Origin: Methylacidimicrobium fagopyrum
Lineage (GTDB): Bacteria > Verrucomicrobiota > Verrucomicrobiia > Limisphaerales > UBA11358
DNA length: 61,921 nucleotides
Reading direction: 5' to 3'
NCBI GenBank assembly: GCA_026225255.1
Contig: JAMFSJ010000026.1
Span: forward strand, 1-61,921
Part shown: positions 42,799 through 49,129 of the stretch, in pieces
Layout: every line of letters begins with the position of its first letter
How positions within the stretch are numbered: the stretch's first letter is position 1
The notes under the pieces: model-generated
What the model saw: the letters and a program-made list of their open reading frames with translations, nothing else
Database searches by the model: none
What the model was told of the DNA's origin: nothing
Translations under genes and position numbers: made by a program

Positions 42799-42969
42799 GC
42801 GCGCCAAACTATTCAACAAAGTGCTGCCGACATCCTGTCGGCAGAAGCGTGACCAGGCAAAACACCGTTCGAATTTTCAAAACCATGTCAGCTCAAGAAA
42901 ACTGCCGACTGCAAGTCGGCAGCACTTTTAAAATTTATTGCAGATATTTCGGTTCATGAGCGCGCCAAA
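42795..42969. repeat. 14-bp direct repeats flanking a REP-type insertion
   Basis: ATGAGCGCGCCAAA occurs at 42795-42808 and again at 42956-42969. The first copy spans the stop of ABC half 1 (TGA at 42796-42798); the second is the start of ABC half 2. The 147 nt between them holds a REP palindrome pair. The simplest reading is a target duplication that split an ATGA-overlapping gene pair. Confidence 0.8.
42821..42924. repeat. REP palindrome pair (BIME-like), free copy between the ABC genes
   Basis: The left palindrome at 42824-42844 (CTGCCGACA-TCC-TGTCGGCAG) and the right palindrome at 42901-42921 (CTGCCGACT-GCA-AGTCGGCAG) are bounded by GTG and CAC, giving inverted ends AAAGTGCTGCC and GGCAGCACTTT. 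It is the same unit that brackets the transposase insert in priA (46641-46731 and 47382-47472), so the element family has at least three copies here. Confidence 0.88.
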
Positions 42970-44818
42970 AAAATCGCCTACCAGTAACGTCGCGAAAGGA
43001 GACCATTCCGCGCGCGCGGCGATTACGTATTACAATCCCGCCGAAGAACGCGACGCCGACAAAGCACCGTTGCAGTGGAAACTCATCCGCCGGATTTTTA
43101 TCTACACGCGACCTTACGCGGCCAAGCGCAACTGGCTGTTCGTGCTCACCTTTGTGCGTGGTTTGCAACTGCCCGCGCTCGCGTGGTTGATTGGCAAAAC
43201 TATTAATGGCCCGATTTCCAATCGCGACCTGTCACAAATCCATTGGTATGCGGCGGGCTATTTTGGCTTGGCATTGTTCACGATCGTGAACTTTCACTTC
43301 CGCCAGCGGTTCGCATTGGAATTGGGCGAGTCCGTGGTGCACGACATGCGGACGGATCTATTCGCGAAGTTGATGACAATGCCGATGGGTTTTTTCAATC
43401 GCACGAAGTTCGGCAGCATTATCAGCCGCATGACGTCGGACGTTGATAGCGTGCGCGCCGGCGTGCAGGAAGTCGCGTTCGTGCTCGTCGTGCAAGGTTT
43501 GCAAATGACGACGTCCGCCGTGTTGATGGCGTGGTATGATTGGAAAATTTTTTCGTTGATGGTGTTGCTCGCGCCGATCATCTGGTTCGTGAACCGGAAT
43601 TATCAGCGCGAGATGGCGCGGCGCATGCGCAAGGTTCAAGAATCCTGGAGCCGCGTTTCGTCTACGCTCGCGGAATCCGTCAGCGGCATCCGCGTCACAC
43701 AGGCGTTCGTGCGGCACGAAGTGAACGCGGAGTTCTTTCAAAAACTGATTGATACACACGGCGAAAACAACGTCGGCGTCGCACAGGCCTCGGCGGTGTT
43801 CGTGCCGCTGTTGCAATTGAAAAGCCAACTTTTTCTCGGCGCGATGGCGTTGCTCGGCGCATTCGGGGCGTTGCAATGGCACGGCTGGTTGCACATGGAA
43901 GTGGGCGATCTCGTGATGTTCTTCTTCCTCGCAAATTTGTTTTTTGATCCCGTGCAGGCGATCGGCAATCAATTAAACCAAGCCCTGATGGCGATGGCGG
44001 GCGCGGAACGTTTTTTCCGAATGATGGATCAAGCGCCGGAATGGTCGGACGCCGCGAACGCCAAACCGTTGGCAAAAATCCAAGGTCGCGTGGAATTCAA
44101 GTCTGTGAATTTCGAATACAAAACCGGACGCCCGGTGCTCGTGGATATTTCATTCACGGTCGAACCCGGCCAATCCGTCGCGCTGGTCGGCCACACCGGC
44201 AGTGGTAAAACCACGCTGGTCGGCTTGCTCCAGAAATTTTATCTGCCCGGCAGCGGTGACGTGCTCGTGGACGGATTTAATTTGAATCACGTCACCAGCG
44301 ATTCGTTGCGGTCGCAGATGGGCAGCGTGCAGCAGAATAATTTTCTGTTCGCCGGCACCGTGCTGGACAACATCCGTTTCGCCCGACCCGAAGCGACGGA
44401 ATCCGAGGTGCGTGGCGTTTTGGAATCGTTGGACTGCCTCGATCTGCTCGCCGATCTGCCGAACGAATTACACACCAAGGTCACCGAACGCGGCACGTCG
44501 TTATCTTTTGGCCAGCGGCAACTCGTCTGTTTTGCACGCGCGATGCTGGCGAATCCGCGCATCGTGGTCTTGGACGAGGCGACGAGCGCGATTGATTCTG
44601 TGACCGAAGCGCGGCTACAAAAGGCGTTGGATATTTTACTGCGCGGACGCACTGCCTTCATTGTCGCGCACCGTTTGAGCACGATCCGCAAAGCGGATTT
44701 AGTCCTCGTAATGGATCAGGGCCACATTGTCGAACGCGGCACGCACGATAGTTTGCTGGCGCAAAATGGTATCTACGCGCGGCTGCATCGCGAATTCATC
44801 AGTGTGCAGGCGAAGTGA
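42956..44818 (+). CDS. ABC exporter half-transporter 2 (canonical Walker B and H-loop)
   Basis: 620 residues from ATG 42956 (MSAPKKSPTSNVAKGD); a frame start at 42938 lies in the inserted repeat. A six-helix membrane domain at about 50-350, then Walker A GHTGSGKTT, Walker B VVLDEATSAID with the catalytic Glu, and H loop FIVAHRLSTI. The signature is LSFGQRQL, not LSGGQ. With half 1 this gives one good and one degenerate ATP site. The substrate is unknown; lipids, peptides and drugs are all possible for this fold. Confidence 0.93.
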   Translation: MSAPKKSPTSNVAKGDHSARAAITYYNPAEERDADKAPLQWKLIRRIFIYTRPYAAKRNWLFVLTFVRGLQLPALAWLIGKTINGPISNRDLSQIHWYAAGYFGLALFTIVNFHFRQRFALELGESVVHDMRTDLFAKLMTMPMGFFNRTKFGSIISRMTSDVDSVRAGVQEVAFVLVVQGLQMTTSAVLMAWYDWKIFSLMVLLAPIIWFVNRNYQREMARRMRKVQESWSRVSSTLAESVSGIRVTQAFVRHEVNAEFFQKLIDTHGENNVGVAQASAVFVPLLQLKSQLFLGAMALLGAFGALQWHGWLHMEVGDLVMFFFLANLFFDPVQAIGNQLNQALMAMAGAERFFRMMDQAPEWSDAANAKPLAKIQGRVEFKSVNFEYKTGRPVLVDISFTVEPGQSVALVGHTGSGKTTLVGLLQKFYLPGSGDVLVDGFNLNHVTSDSLRSQMGSVQQNNFLFAGTVLDNIRFARPEATESEVRGVLESLDCLDLLADLPNELHTKVTERGTSLSFGQRQLVCFARAMLANPRIVVLDEATSAIDSVTEARLQKALDILLRGRTAFIVAHRLSTIRKADLVLVMDQGHIVERGTHDSLLAQNGIYARLHREFISVQAK

Positions 44819-44916
44819 CCGTTCTTAACTGCAGAGAGCCGAAGCTAAGGACTGATATGAATTTCATGGATTAACCCGGATTCCAATCCGGCAAAATCGG
44901 TTTGTCGATCATGTCA

Positions 44917-44956
44917 AAACTCTTTCCCCATCTGCGTCCAGCTGCGGTTAAAATTT
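44917..44956. repeat. Single degenerate repeat arm next to the priA stop
   Basis: CCCATCTGCGTCCAGCTGCG followed by GTTAAAATTTTT resembles one arm of the CATCTGTG-word elements, ending at the priA stop codon (44957-44959). No matching second arm is visible nearby. Confidence 0.5.
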
Positions 44957-47900
44957 TTAACTCAAATTCACCGGATCAATGTCCACCGCCAGCATGACAT
45001 CTTCCGGCAATATGAGGGCTTGGACGAGCTGCGATAGTTCGCGGCTCAACGCGCTCATGGCCCGCGTGCGCAGCATGATCTGATAGCGATAAAAAGTTTC
45101 TGCGCGCAATAACGGCGCGGGTGCGGGACCGGCGATGACCAAGTCTTTGAACAGATTTTTTGGCGGAACACTGGCCCCGCGCGCGTCTGGTTTGACGTCC
45201 TCGTCAAATAGTTCCGCGTTGGTCAAGGCTGCCAGGGCGTCAACTTTTGCGTCCAAGGCGGGTGCTCTCCCCAATTTTTTTTCTAGCTCACGTTTCAGAT
45301 GTTCGGCGGAAAATTTCACCTTTTCTTCGCTGCGCCCTTTCAGCGTCAGCAAGGCGATGCGGCTGAACGGCGGATATTTTAATTGTTTACGAAATTCCGT
45401 TTCCTGTTCGTAGAAGCCGTTGAAATCATGCCGCCGCGCATATTGGATGGCCGGGTGAAACGGGGCGAACGCCTGCACAAATACTTCGCCAGACACGTCG
45501 CCGCGACCGGCGCGACCAGACACTTGCGTGAGCAATTGAAACGTTCGTTCGCCCGCGCGAAAATCCGGTTGATGCAACGCGAGGTCCGCATACATGACGC
45601 CGACCAGCGTGACGTTTGGAAAATGCAATCCCTTCGCGATCATTTGCGTGCCGACGAGGATGTCAATTTTGCCCGCGCGAAAATCGCCGAGCACGCGGCG
45701 GTAATCGTCTTTCCGCTTCATCGTATCCGCATCCATGCGTTTGGTGCGCGCCTGCGGAAATAGTTTCGCGAGCACTTCCTCGATCTTTTGCGTGCCGGTG
45801 CCGGCGAAACGGATCGCCGGATTTTTGCACTTCGGCTCGGGACAAACCAACGGAACTTTTTCCACATGACCACAGATGTGACACGACAGGCGTTGGTCCA
45901 CGCGATGGTAAGTCAGCGTAATGCTGCAGTTCGGACAGTTCGCCACGAAGCCGCATTTCGGACATTGCAACGAACTGGAATAGCCGCGCCGGTTCAAAAA
46001 TAAAATCGTCTGCTCGCCGCGTTCAAGTCGCTGCGTGATCGCTTCCTTGAGTTGCGGCGAAAAGATTGGCGGCCCTTTTTCCTTATACGCGGCTTGCCGC
46101 ATATCCACGACCCGGACGAGTGGCAATTTTTGATCGTCCACGCGTTCCGGCAATTCGATCAACGCAAATTTTCCGCGCTGGCAGTTGTAAAAACTTTCCA
46201 TGGACGGCGTCGCCGAGCCGAGCACGACCACGGCATTTTCCATCTGCCCGCGCATGACGGCAACATCACGCGCGTGATAGCGCGGCGACTCTTCCTGCTT
46301 ATAGGTGTGCTCGTGTTCCTCGTCCACGATGATGAGGCCGAGGGGTTCGACTGGCGCAAAAATCGCTGACCGGGCACCGATCACGATGCGTGCGCGACCT
46401 TGTCGAATCTTGTGCCATTCATCATGCCGTTCGCCCGCGCTCAAATGCGAATGCAACACGGCCACGAGCGTCTGTAATTTTCCCGAACTAAACCGCGCCT
46501 TAAAACGTTCCACCGTCTGCGGTGTCAGCGAGATTTCCGGCACCAGCACGATCGCGCCCTTCCCCTGCTCTAGCGCGTGGGCAATGGCTTGCAGATAAAT
46601 TTCCGTCTTGCCCGAGCCCGTAACGCCGTGCAGGAGAAAAGTGCTGCCGACATTCTGTCGGCAGGGCTGGCTTTCTGCGATTGGTGCGACCTTGGTTACA
46701 GTTGGTTCTGCCAACAGGATGTTGGCAGAATTTTTGCTGCCTTGAAAAATAAAGTTACCGCAACCAATTCGAAATCTCCCCGACTTTAAGCCAGCTTTTA
46801 TTGGATTATCTCGAATGTAATTACGAATTTTTTCGTATTGAGTTTCACTCCGCACCACATGGTCAAAATATTCCTCACGCCAAAACGCTCCCTGCAAGCC
46901 GAGTAATTGATTAGCCGCCTTCGCCGTAAATGTTTTCCAAGACTGCAAAATGGTTTCCAAAGGATGTTCTTCCGTTGGCCGAACCAATAGATGCACATGA
47001 TTCGGCATGATCACAAAATCACCCAGTTGATACCTTGCACCATCAAAATGGCGAAAGGCTTGTTCGACCAGTTCGCCGATTTCCGGACGCGCCAGCGCAC
47101 AGCTGCCGCGACCGGCATCAAGCCAATCCTCCAGACGTTTGGTAAAGCGTTCGTAATATTCCGCACGCACTAAATCGCTCCAAGGTTCGGGATGCCATTT
47201 CAACCAAGCCTGACGTTCTGCCGTCCATGCAGACAATATACTTTGGGCAATGGAATCATTTAATCGGAAGGTGACAAAATAAAGTTTGTTCGCCTGCCGC
47301 CAATGCGGCAGCCAGCCGGAATATTTTCCCACCGGCGCATTTTTTTTGAAGAAGGGCGAATTATATTCCAGTTCCGGCAAAGTGCTGCCGACATCCTGTC
47401 GGCAGGACTCACTCTTGGTAATGGGCGCGACCTGGGTTGCCGTCGGCTCTGCCAACAGAATGTTGGCAGCACTTTGCGGTGCCCCCATTGCTACTTTAAT
47501 TTTCTCCAGCGCGACGGCTTGCGCCGGATTCAACACCAACGGCTGGCTGGGCAAAATATGTTCGCGCGCATACGGATCACGTTCGGAGATCTGCGATGTT
47601 ATTTCGATGAGGCCGCGATCTTCCAACTTGCGCACGGTCGCCGCCGTGGTCTGCGCCAGTTCGATGAGTTCAGCCAATAAAATTTCGCGCCGCTCTTCGA
47701 GGACGTTCCAGACGTCTTGCTGGCGCTTCGGCAACTTGGGAAATTCGCCACTTTGCGGCAGCGCTCGCACGGATAACCGTTCCCGCCAGCCGGCATCTTC
47801 CTTGCGCACGGCTTCGGGCAAAACGCTTTTCAAGGCGAGTTCCGGCGCGCAGCAATAATACTCGCCGATCCACCGCGCGAGCCTAAGCACCTTTTCCGTG

Positions 47901-48112
47901 ACCAACGTTTGCGCGCCGATGACTTTGATGATCGGCTTGAGATTCGTGTGCGCGGATTCTTCAGCGACAGCGGTAACGACACCGAGAATTTTCCGCGCAC
48001 CGAACGGCACTTGCACACGACTACCCACATCAACCTGCCCAGCCAGTTCGCTCGGAATGGAATAATCAAATTCCTTCCGCAACGCGATCTCAAGGCTGAC
48101 ACGGGCGATCAT
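44957..48112 (-). CDS. priA: Primosomal helicase PriA carrying an in-frame RAYT transposase insert
   Basis: 1051 residues, about 280 more than a normal PriA. Residues 1-210 are the DNA-binding and winged-helix regions, ending LNPAQAVALEKIKVAMGAPQ. Residues about 214-490 are foreign: a translated REP pair (SAANILLAEPTATQVAP...), a Y1-transposase domain with the HUH motif MPNHVHLLV (His372, His374) and catalytic Tyr432 in NYIRDNPIKAGL, then a second translated REP pair. The helicase resumes at TFLLHGVTGSGKTEIYL (Walker A), with VDEEHEHTYKQEE, GSATPS, the eight-Cys zinc cluster (CPKCGFVANCPNC, CHICG) and the C-terminal domain intact. No frameshift or stop is present. PriA restarts stalled replication forks. 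The protein could be a working fusion or a damaged helicase. Confidence 0.9.
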   Translation of the reverse strand: MIARVSLEIALRKEFDYSIPSELAGQVDVGSRVQVPFGARKILGVVTAVAEESAHTNLKPIIKVIGAQTLVTEKVLRLARWIGEYYCCAPELALKSVLPEAVRKEDAGWRERLSVRALPQSGEFPKLPKRQQDVWNVLEERREILLAELIELAQTTAATVRKLEDRGLIEITSQISERDPYAREHILPSQPLVLNPAQAVALEKIKVAMGAPQSAANILLAEPTATQVAPITKSESCRQDVGSTLPELEYNSPFFKKNAPVGKYSGWLPHWRQANKLYFVTFRLNDSIAQSILSAWTAERQAWLKWHPEPWSDLVRAEYYERFTKRLEDWLDAGRGSCALARPEIGELVEQAFRHFDGARYQLGDFVIMPNHVHLLVRPTEEHPLETILQSWKTFTAKAANQLLGLQGAFWREEYFDHVVRSETQYEKIRNYIRDNPIKAGLKSGRFRIGCGNFIFQGSKNSANILLAEPTVTKVAPIAESQPCRQNVGSTFLLHGVTGSGKTEIYLQAIAHALEQGKGAIVLVPEISLTPQTVERFKARFSSGKLQTLVAVLHSHLSAGERHDEWHKIRQGRARIVIGARSAIFAPVEPLGLIIVDEEHEHTYKQEESPRYHARDVAVMRGQMENAVVVLGSATPSMESFYNCQRGKFALIELPERVDDQKLPLVRVVDMRQAAYKEKGPPIFSPQLKEAITQRLERGEQTILFLNRRGYSSSLQCPKCGFVANCPNCSITLTYHRVDQRLSCHICGHVEKVPLVCPEPKCKNPAIRFAGTGTQKIEEVLAKLFPQARTKRMDADTMKRKDDYRRVLGDFRAGKIDILVGTQMIAKGLHFPNVTLVGVMYADLALHQPDFRAGERTFQLLTQVSGRAGRGDVSGEVFVQAFAPFHPAIQYARRHDFNGFYEQETEFRKQLKYPPFSRIALLTLKGRSEEKVKFSAEHLKRELEKKLGRAPALDAKVDALAALTNAELFDEDVKPDARGASVPPKNLFKDLVIAGPAPAPLLRAETFYRYQIMLRTRAMSALSRELSQLVQALILPEDVMLAVDIDPVNLS
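46641..46731. repeat. Translated REP palindrome pair, downstream side of the RAYT
   Basis: The palindrome CTGCCGACA-TTC-TGTCGGCAG starts at 46644, and the second palindrome CTGCCAACAGGATGTTGGCAG lies at 46708-46728. In the priA frame it encodes SANILLAEPTVTKVAPIAES followed by QPCRQNVGST. Confidence 0.88.
47382..47472. repeat. Translated REP palindrome pair, upstream side of the RAYT
   Basis: It begins GTGCTGCCGACATCCTGTCG and ends CTGCCAACAGAATGTTGGCA then GCAC. In the priA frame it encodes SAANILLAEPTATQVAPITK followed by SESCRQDVGST, nearly identical to the other pair. The two copies are direct repeats 741 nt apart. Confidence 0.88.
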
Positions 48113-48212
48113 TTTGGAGGAAAACTTTAACCGTGAAATCCACGAAACACACGAAAGAAGAGAATAACGAATAACGCATTGGCGAAACGTATTAAAGTTG
48201 TCTTTTCAAAAG

Positions 48213-48368
48213 GGTGGCACAGGCGTCTCGCCTGTTAAATTTGGCGTCCCGCCGAATTTCGTTTGAAGATGTCCGTTGCGAATTGACGCTGGCTGCCAGA
48301 ATAGGTGTGGCCGTCCAAACGGTTTCGGGCGGGACGCCCAAAACAACAGGCGAGACGCCTGTGCCACC
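48213..48368. repeat. GGTGGCAC-ended intergenic element, copy B, perfect 24-bp inverted ends
   Basis: Ends 48213-48236 and 48345-48368 are exact inverted repeats (GGTGGCACAGGCGTCTCGCC, then TGTT). A second inner inverted pair is GGCGTCCCGCC with GGCGGGACGCC. At 156 bp, with no coding capacity, it looks like a small non-autonomous mobile element. It lies between priA and the DUF374 gene; a GTGAAATCCACGAAACACAC word precedes it at about 48132-48151. Confidence 0.85.
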
Positions 48369-48397
48369 TCACATCAGCACGACTTAACGATTAAAAT

Positions 48398-49129
48398 TCA
48401 ATCCTTCGTGATCGCGCGCAATTCGATTTCCAATTGTTGGCGCAACGCTTCACGCTCTTCCTCGCTGCCGCCAGCAGGCATCCGGAAGATTTTTCCCACG
48501 TTCACTTCGCAGATGGAAAATGGCAGCGGAATTTGAAACGCATCCCAGCTCTTCAATGAAATTTTCCATTTCAAATAATACGACATCGGCTGCACCGGTA
48601 AGCCCGTGATTTGCGCCAAACCCGCCGCGCCATCCGCCACGACGTAACGCGGACCGCGCGGGCCGTCCGGCGTGATCGCGAGGTCGTAGCCGCGCTCCGC
48701 CCACGTCGCCAATTCGCGCAACGCCTGCGCGCCCCGACGACTGCTGGAACCGCGGGCGGCTTGCACCCCAAACCGTCCGAAAATCGCAGAGAGCAACGCG
48801 CCATCTTTGCTCGCGCTCACGAGACCGGCCACGCCGGGGGCGACAAAATGTTGTTGGCGGAATTTGAAATACAGTTCCACACACAATGCCAGACGGTTAT
48901 GCCAGAAACAAAACACCGCCTGATTGACGTCCTTGCGTTGGAGAAAACCGTGCGGATCGTTGATACGAAAACGAATCGTCTTCGACACGGCGCTGATGAA
49001 AAACCAGATCAAAAAGGCCGCAAGCTGTTGATACCAGTTCGCCGTGTTGGGAATGACGACGCCGGATTTTTGGCGCTTGGGTCTCGGGGCTGGCATCTGG
49101 GGTTTTGGCGCTGGGGTTTTGGTTTCCAT
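48398..49129 (-). CDS. DUF374 lysophospholipid acyltransferase-like protein
   Basis: 243 residues. One membrane-associated helix near 35-50 (LAAFLIWFFISAV), then FCFWHNRLAL (HX4-type block), SASKDGALLSAIFGRFG, ARGSSSRRGAQAL and ITPDGPRGPRYVV, the standard DUF374 motifs. Members belong to the LPLAT superfamily and may act on lipid A or other lipids. The N-terminal 22 residues (METKTPAPKPQMPAPRPKRQ) are encoded by C/A-rich repeat-like words and are probably not part of the fold. It ends a run with ruvA 2 nt upstream. Confidence 0.85.
   Translation of the reverse strand: METKTPAPKPQMPAPRPKRQKSGVVIPNTANWYQQLAAFLIWFFISAVSKTIRFRINDPHGFLQRKDVNQAVFCFWHNRLALCVELYFKFRQQHFVAPGVAGLVSASKDGALLSAIFGRFGVQAARGSSSRRGAQALRELATWAERGYDLAITPDGPRGPRYVVADGAAGLAQITGLPVQPMSYYLKWKISLKSWDAFQIPLPFSICEVNVGKIFRMPAGGSEEEREALRQQLEIELRAITKD

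Follow-up and report, generated by a model that had tools for sequence, protein, structure and literature searches.

Housekeeping genes, including priA, as likely lodgings for a RAYT element predicted to be translated within its host protein

Inteins are in-frame insertions that move horizontally, are patchily distributed, and occupy fixed sites near the ATPase motifs of housekeeping proteins. Homing can also proceed without splicing, as described, in the part of the source used here, for the WHO elements of the yeast gene FBA1 (PMC7282813). Regarding bacterial palindromic repeats, the available portion of another study reports that REPs occur inside replication and repair genes, that RAYTs are genes flanked by REPs, and that REP-encoded stretches of up to 43-82 aa are found in host proteins (PMC3733652). 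In turn, according to the sections of a 2018 TnpA-Y1 survey drawn on here, a few unexpectedly long proteins were set aside as gene fusions or annotation errors (PMC6006769). Judging by titles and abstracts in a partial full-text literature, no account of a RAYT embedded in PriA or in other helicases was found.

The locus described here belongs to an uncultured bacterium (Methylacidimicrobium fagopyrum, contig JAMFSJ010000026.1); "the window" refers to the whole stretch of 61,921 nucleotides that was analysed. The priA frame of the window is unbroken and comprises 1051 codons before the stop, of which 278 in-frame codons correspond to an insert (Table 1). The features of PriA are all present in the fusion, i.e., 3'BD, helicase lobes, Zn-binding Cys, and C-terminal domain: Pfam places PriA 3'BD at residues 4-99, DEAD at 490-639, the Zn ribbon at 726-752, Helicase_C at 775-870, and PriA_C at 989-1047, and the NCBIfam PriA models NF004066 and TIGR00595 score above their cut-offs. 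Inside the insert, the Pfam family Y1_Tnp is found at 360-435 (32 bits vs. its own cut-off of 23) and REP_Tyr_transpos (NF047646) at 343-442 with 66 bits, under a cut-off of 80 which the embedded relatives L106 and L111 barely clear (80.4 and 80.3 bits). The RAYT signature consists of H372, H374 and a single Tyr (Y432), the Tyr helix reading NYIRDNP. This RAYT has no stop of its own and, hence, is not a free-standing gene but forms a single frame with priA, whose sequence picks up again after the insert at FLLHGVTGSGKT.

A preliminary description of this DNA had claimed (i) a PriA split by a RAYT within one 1051-codon frame, which the ORF list, Pfam and NCBIfam confirm; (ii) the HUH motif MPNHVHLLV and the tyrosine helix, which read as stated when checked again in frame; and (iii) two translated REP pairs flanking the RAYT, which were recovered as a direct repeat, 80% alike. 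Its boundaries at about residues 213 and 491 hold as well, while the span that it gave (46641..47472) is off by one base at each end according to the codon count. As it had also proposed, a PriA-transposase fusion is predicted, because RAYT and PriA share one open frame.

Table 1. Positions of the cassette within priA and of related features (window coordinates, except for the type B loci).
Feature	Position	Strand	Basis or remark
priA ORF with embedded RAYT	44957..48112	-	1051 aa, ATG start; ORF list, Pfam, NCBIfam
PriA N-terminal part, residues 1-213	47474..48112	-	Pfam, relatives' alignment, E. coli comparison
In-frame insert, residues 214-491 (REP pair, RAYT, REP pair)	46640..47473	-	834 bp
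REP pair 1, palindromes 47385-47405 + 47449-47469, translated	47379..47475	-	direct-repeat + palindrome search
RAYT (Y1 HUH) domain used for trees, residues 263-448	46769..47326	-	Pfam; AlphaFold2 order 272-458
HUH motif MPNHVHLLV, residues 369-377 (His 372 + 374)	46982..47008	-	motif in aligned relatives
Tyr 432, presumed catalytic tyrosine	46817..46819	-	motif in aligned relatives
REP pair 2, palindromes 46644-46664 + 46708-46728, translated	46638..46734	-	direct-repeat + palindrome search
PriA Walker A GVTGSGKT, residues 496-503	46604..46627	-	motif, alignment
PriA helicase/C-terminal part, residues 492-1051 + stop	44957..46639	-	Pfam, E. coli comparison
Single REP, same family as the insert's, elsewhere in window	42824..42844		palindrome search of own genome
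Type B loci	L032, L034, L038, L062		priA of G024, G021, G031, G035; GTAG ends in L032/L034

The search for a second priA proposed in the preliminary description returned one full copy only (the other matches are weak and below cut-off) in an assembly of 3.92 Mb and 79 contigs which is 85.66% complete, so that a second priA could lie in the missing part. An assembly chimera or a dead priA might be suspected from the assemblies G020 and G010, which break or hold an N run at the site. Nevertheless, with an intact frame, complete PriA domains, and the same architecture in 53 PriA-labelled clusters of the 120 embedded relatives listed (P0029, P0036 and P0038 being on contigs of 0.68 to 1.24 Mb), this explanation is hardly credible, and assembly error and pseudogene were rejected on account of those 53 clusters and of the three on contigs of at least 0.68 Mb.

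In E. coli PriA (8fak_H), chain residues 211 and 217 bracket the point of insertion, immediately preceding the Walker A strand; this comparison, together with the loops of relatives, bears out the earlier placement in a length-tolerant loop ahead of the P-loop strand. The priA gene was surveyed in 59 genomes (the own genome and 58 relatives) and could be read as one frame in 55, being broken in G010, G015, G020 and G025 by contig ends, an N run or the frame. Among the 54 readable relatives, one (G030) carries a RAYT of the window's type (type A), four carry a different one (type B), and 49 have no RAYT. Type B RAYTs, 35-42% identical to that of the window over 85-108 of 186 residues, occupy the same priA site in G021, G024, G031 and G035, all of the same genus, with other REPs. 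The RAYT-free loops are hypervariable in length and sequence, and no RAYT match was found in the long PriA frames of G045, G049, G054 and G038. By eye, the RAYT-free loops of L050, L055, L066, L067 and others contain varied stretches resembling other translated repeats, and such varied fillings suggest that the priA loop may be a general repeat trap. An assembly break or N run was seen at the priA loop of G020 (G020:C33/C196; L030, L087) and G010 (L086), so that draft genomes may show fewer inserts than actually exist.

The distribution of type A was mapped on a tree of 102 PriA cores, 48 of which were picked for carrying the insert and 54 taken from relatives: no fewer than 26 changes are needed, of which starred branches force 18, while the shuffled mean is 34. 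Only 2 of 500 shuffles were as low and, therefore, presence is somewhat clustered, that is, patchy though not random. By tree path, the PriA core nearest to that of the window is L031 (G004), whose loop is empty.

The arms of the REP palindromes are perfectly self-complementary in both of their forms, CTGCCGACA/TGTCGGCAG and CTGCCAACA/TGTTGGCAG, which points to a hairpin maintained at the nucleic-acid level despite translation. Allowing one mismatch at most, and with each palindrome counted on both strands, the own genome is matched 36 times in forward and 35 times in reverse orientation, compared with 0 + 0 for the reversed control. Counted as exact patterns only across 49 genomes, the REP form of the own genome (G000) appears 32 times in G000, 4 in G030, 2 in G234, and once each in G010, G004 and G002, with none in 43/49 and a maximum of 4 among the 48 congeners. 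The G030 form appears 21 times in G030, 14 in G233, 5 in G004, and once each in G031 and G234, being absent from 44/49 genomes, G000 included. Hence, both genus members with a type A insert (G000 and G030) have many REPs in the form of their own insert's flanks. A strict rule by which REPs occur only where the embedded RAYT is fails on G233, whose assembly has 14 REPs of the G030 kind yet neither a PriA insert nor a type A RAYT, an exception indicating that REPs can exist without an embedded RAYT.

As for the REP foot (GTAG/GTGG being the RAYT criterion), AAAGTG was found in 19 of the 21 REPs read, four of the 21 lying inside the insert. This AAAGTG/CACTTT stands on one side of 19/21 distinct G000 REPs and at both outer ends of the priA insert, the CACTTT end of REP pair 2 overlapping the Thr-Phe codons (ACT-TTT) of priA TFLLHG. 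The REP ends might target the priA codons exactly. In G030, the foot is mostly AACGTG, and the type B inserts L032 and L034 have GTAG; in G127 and G160, the last REP stops several codons ahead of TFLLHG. A sharp target-site rule is therefore partly supported only, in view of the different feet of G000 and G030 and of the early ends in G127 and G160.

The own genome has five Y1_Tnp genes, of which only that of priA is in a long frame. The copy in priA is the sole match of this genome to the RAYT query in an order-level scan, and no exact insert-type REP was found near the other four Y1 genes, in loci of about 3.3 kb each. For both reasons, the strongest candidate for serving the REPs of the genome is the RAYT embedded in PriA. 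Separately, a further palindromic pair (GGTGGCACAGGCG ... CGCCTGTGCCACC) was noticed by eye between priA and the next upstream gene (window positions ~48213-48372), which resembles the repeats carried by the type B insert of L038. More REPs were also observed in or beside the C-terminal part of priA at L029 1701 (G030) and G233:C50:6907.

Regarding the protein, the AlphaFold2 model (48 sequences) gives pLDDT values of 73-93 for the RAYT block, under 50 for the linkers 215-271 and 459-488, and 46-91 for the helicase part, residues 1-110 being mostly under 70 and poorly modelled; for the whole fusion, the mean pLDDT is 67.9 and the pTM only 0.51. The best PDB matches of the model by Foldseek are PriA structures. 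Among PDB sequences, the sole match of the RAYT domain is 4er8 TnpA_REP (E 0.0019), and the RAYT profile also retrieves IS200-type transposases, with 2xm3 slightly ahead of 4er8. A folded nuclease held beside PriA on two disordered, REP-encoded tethers is predicted. Across 48 aligned fusions (the window and 47 others), no variation is seen in the Walker A Lys or in the DE of motif II, and HUH and Tyr are intact in 48/48. A Met between the junction and the RAYT domain is absent from 45/48 fusions and present in 3/48, so that an internal ATG start yielding a separate RAYT would not be a common feature; this count covers ATG, and GTG or TTG starts may exist in the insert.

The recurrence of the insert at one P-loop-proximal site recalls inteins and, consequently, its removal after transcription or after translation, as in introns or inteins, has to be weighed. 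However, the intein domain (Hint) is absent among the 7 Pfam families and among the 25 listed of 33 NCBIfam families, and no Rfam family matches in 44500-49000; with neither a splicing domain nor an RNA family found, intein and intron were rejected as candidates, and removal of the insert is very improbable.

The histories of insert and host are partly shared. The identities of core and insert are correlated across 49 fusions (Mantel r 0.68, with 0/2000 permutations as high) and 9/46 splits are common to the insert and core trees, with agreement in some small clades, which indicates that part of the history is vertical. In any case, 10 of the 20 strong splits of the insert tree are contradicted by strong splits of the core tree, and by the AU test neither topology is accepted for the other data set (p 1.2e-11 for the core topology on the insert, p 1.8e-4 for the insert topology on the core). 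For instance, the core of P0002 is 95-96% identical to those of L029, P0018, P0034 and P0037 (94% to P0024) and its insert 63-66%; in P0048/P0056, the core is 97% and the insert 67% identical; and the window insert is nearest to P0002 (75%), the window core being nearest to P0017 (91%; insert 65%). Between the type B loci L032 and L034, dS is 0.24 for the insert vs. 0.83 for the host 3' part, and a rise in identity is already visible in the 60-base segment that begins at base 601, adjoining the insert, which would fit exchange through the flanks. A single ancient domestication with purely vertical descent was rejected owing to the conflict between core and insert trees and the patchy presence.

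Relatives were searched with the window's own residues 205-500, a query which favours PriA carriers, and 718 proteins were retrieved at E <= 0.001 among 2822 candidates; this search admits only proteins of 0.55-1.75 times the fusion length and, in consequence, free-standing RAYTs are absent from it. The latter were sought separately with the opposite length limit, and may include pieces of embedded ones. Among the best 120 of the 718, with host labels assigned by motif, 53 are PriA, 49 DinG-type, 4 RecG, and 14 other proteins. The position of the RAYT within each host is as follows: (i) before Walker A in 53/53 of the PriA-labelled proteins among the 120 listed; (ii) between the TSATL and QVGxPF motifs in 44/49 listed DinG-type proteins and, in the remaining 5/49, after TSATL with QVGxPF unmatched (variant letters in 4, a truncated protein in 1); and (iii) in the loop before (V/T)VGTHAL in 4/4 RecG proteins by eye, 2/4 having failed the motif check. 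A peptide of at least 5 residues is common to both flanks in 62/106 PriA, DinG and RecG cases, compared with 0/106 when the downstream flank is shuffled, in line with what paired REPs should produce. HUH and Tyr are present in 120/120 embedded RAYTs listed and are kept equally in the free-standing relatives (H in 120, H in 119, and Tyr in 118 of 120), bearing in mind that a similarity search favours intact copies.

On the RAYT tree, host labels require 5 changes for the 54 PriA rows (shuffled mean 49) and 3 for the 49 DinG rows (mean 45), and a single set of 69 rows (support 96) gathers 53/54 of the RAYTs embedded in PriA, its other members being only 12 free-standing and 4 RecG rows. Lineages tied to one host gene which nonetheless move between genomes would be homing-like. 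Inside this 69-row set there is also a group labelled free-standing (P0126, P0137, P0143 and seven others), whose members terminate in ...SLCYLNTPP or a like sequence.

These data bear on the alternative of a scar in a permissive loop, according to which the loop before the P-loop tolerates any in-frame insert and RAYTs land at random, with no site preference. Such a scar is consistent with the hypervariable loops of relatives, several of whose fillings look by eye like translated repeats, with the use of the priA loop by two clearly different RAYT types, and with the REPs already known inside genes from the part of the literature available (PMC3733652). By contrast, the gathering of 53/54 PriA-embedded RAYTs in a single set is unlike random landing, though the query was itself PriA-embedded; the catalytic residues are kept in 120/120 listed; and dN/dS of embedded RAYTs is 0.057-0.204 in 15/21 pairs (of the other 6, three have saturated dS, one is an identical pair, and two are unreadable). 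Part of this low dN/dS may come from the need to fold or from evolution outside the host gene. A random scar is thus unlikely, and the "tolerated scar" of the preliminary description is too weak a term for an insert with one-site recurrence, conserved HUH and Tyr, such dN/dS values, and a tree in conflict with that of its host.

Embedded RAYTs are not restricted to these helicases. In the best 80 loci of a scan of genome contigs, 79 RAYT frames were read, and 33 of them run for more than 400 aa without a stop. These 33 include frames from Verrucomicrobiota, Kiritimatiellales, Planctomycetota, Chloroflexales, Bacteroidota, Ignavibacteriales, Methylomirabilis, and Proteobacteria, and host-protein domains were found by Pfam in 11/11 of those scanned. 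The order-level scan matched the RAYT query in 176/320 genomes: the best 29 rows (E <= 1.4e-56, that of the window included) all occupy frames of 621-1531 aa, of which one contains a TGA, and the weaker matches are mostly in frames of 200-350 aa. The hosts identified by Pfam and NCBIfam include CCA-adding/PcnB, LeuRS, ValRS, AlaRS, CarB, XseA, an ADH/GFO-IDH-MocA oxidoreductase, ClpB, DnaE, DinG/YoaA, RecG, SNF2, HsdR, adenosine deaminase, Eco57I-type R-M, a radical SAM protein, and a DUF1156 methylase. In-frame RAYTs were likewise observed in clpB at L089, L090 and L091 (G006, G014 and G031; L089 by Pfam, the others by eye) and in dnaE at L092 and L093 (G026 and G035; L092 checked, L093 by eye). 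Among viral contigs, a single RAYT domain query, which reaches close relatives only, gave no confirmed relative, and phage carriage was rejected within that scope.

RepHel and relaxase-helicase proteins combine a helicase with a nicking nuclease. By analogy, a domesticated HUH domain could give PriA, DinG and RecG a nicking function, a reading that accommodates the conservation of HUH and Tyr and the fact that PriA, DinG-type or RecG helicases make up 106/120 of the embedded relatives listed. Nonetheless, it is improbable, given that the insert is patchy even within one genus, that insert and PriA trees conflict, and that related cassettes reside in aminoacyl-tRNA synthetases, CarB, ClpB and an oxidoreductase. 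Similarly, the special tie between transposition and fork restart once suggested for this locus is unsupported, because related cassettes occupy LeuRS, ValRS, CarB, ClpB, XseA, an oxidoreductase and others.

In short, the in-frame RAYT cassette in priA is real and recurrent. Since the same kind of insert recurs in the same priA spot of many relatives and inside other housekeeping genes, such genes, priA included, likely serve as lodgings for a mobile element predicted to be translated within the host protein. The preferred and reasonably probable explanation is that the insert is a REP-RAYT-REP cassette in the sole priA found, predicted to be translated unspliced, likely mobile between priA genes, and which would still move the REPs of the genome; i.e., most likely a horizontally moving, unspliced, intein-like in-frame "REPtron". 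As judged from the sequence, the cassette would be translated as a flexibly tethered domain of PriA and not spliced out. Its Y1 nuclease would cut and join single-stranded DNA at its own REP hairpins and, in so doing, spread REPs, and the cassette as a whole would pass between priA genes, either by transposing or through recombination in the conserved flanks. Residence in a gene that is presumably required would protect it, since PriA can work only if the cassette stays in frame and free of stops or is cleanly lost; a foldable RAYT with predicted-disordered REP linkers would, in turn, let PriA work around the insert.

A broader proposal, possible but on the doubtful side, is that of a new class of homing elements: unspliced, translated HUH-transposase cassettes whose lineages have each become specific to a single loop in a single housekeeping gene (priA, dinG, recG, dnaE, clpB, leuS, others), enter at codons like their own REP ends, and become a permanent domain of a required host protein. 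There is a fair chance that the window element adds to RAYT/REPtron biology as a class of its own. If true, this would represent an intein-like life without splicing, in which a mobile element survives by being translated inside presumably indispensable proteins, and the notion that REPtrons do not transfer as whole units would come into question. The data also suggest that a loop of replicative helicases and polymerases can accommodate a nuclease of ~280 residues, and the PriA fusion with its own REP hairpin offers a directly testable system. For annotators, there is a warning in the long TnpA-Y1 proteins which, in the consulted part of that survey, were dismissed as fusions or errors (PMC6006769).

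Compared with known systems, the element resembles (i) RAYT/TnpA_REP and REPtrons in its HUH and single Tyr, its flanking REP hairpins, and the matching REPs dispersed in the genome, but, lacking its own stop, it is embedded in frame within a host protein; (ii) intragenic REPs and Rickettsia palindromic elements (RPE) in its palindromes translated in frame inside a gene (many of the repeats described in the portion of the source available are in genes of DNA synthesis or repair; PMC3733652), although here the transposase itself is embedded and not the palindromes alone; (iii) WHO elements in homing into a housekeeping gene, but while these, as partly accessed, replace the 3' end of the gene (PMC7282813), here the host protein continues on both sides of the insert; and (iv) inteins in being an in-frame, patchy, horizontally spreading insert that keeps to one site close to an ATPase motif of its housekeeping host, whereas no splicing domain was found here and the enzyme is a Y1 HUH nuclease instead of a homing endonuclease.
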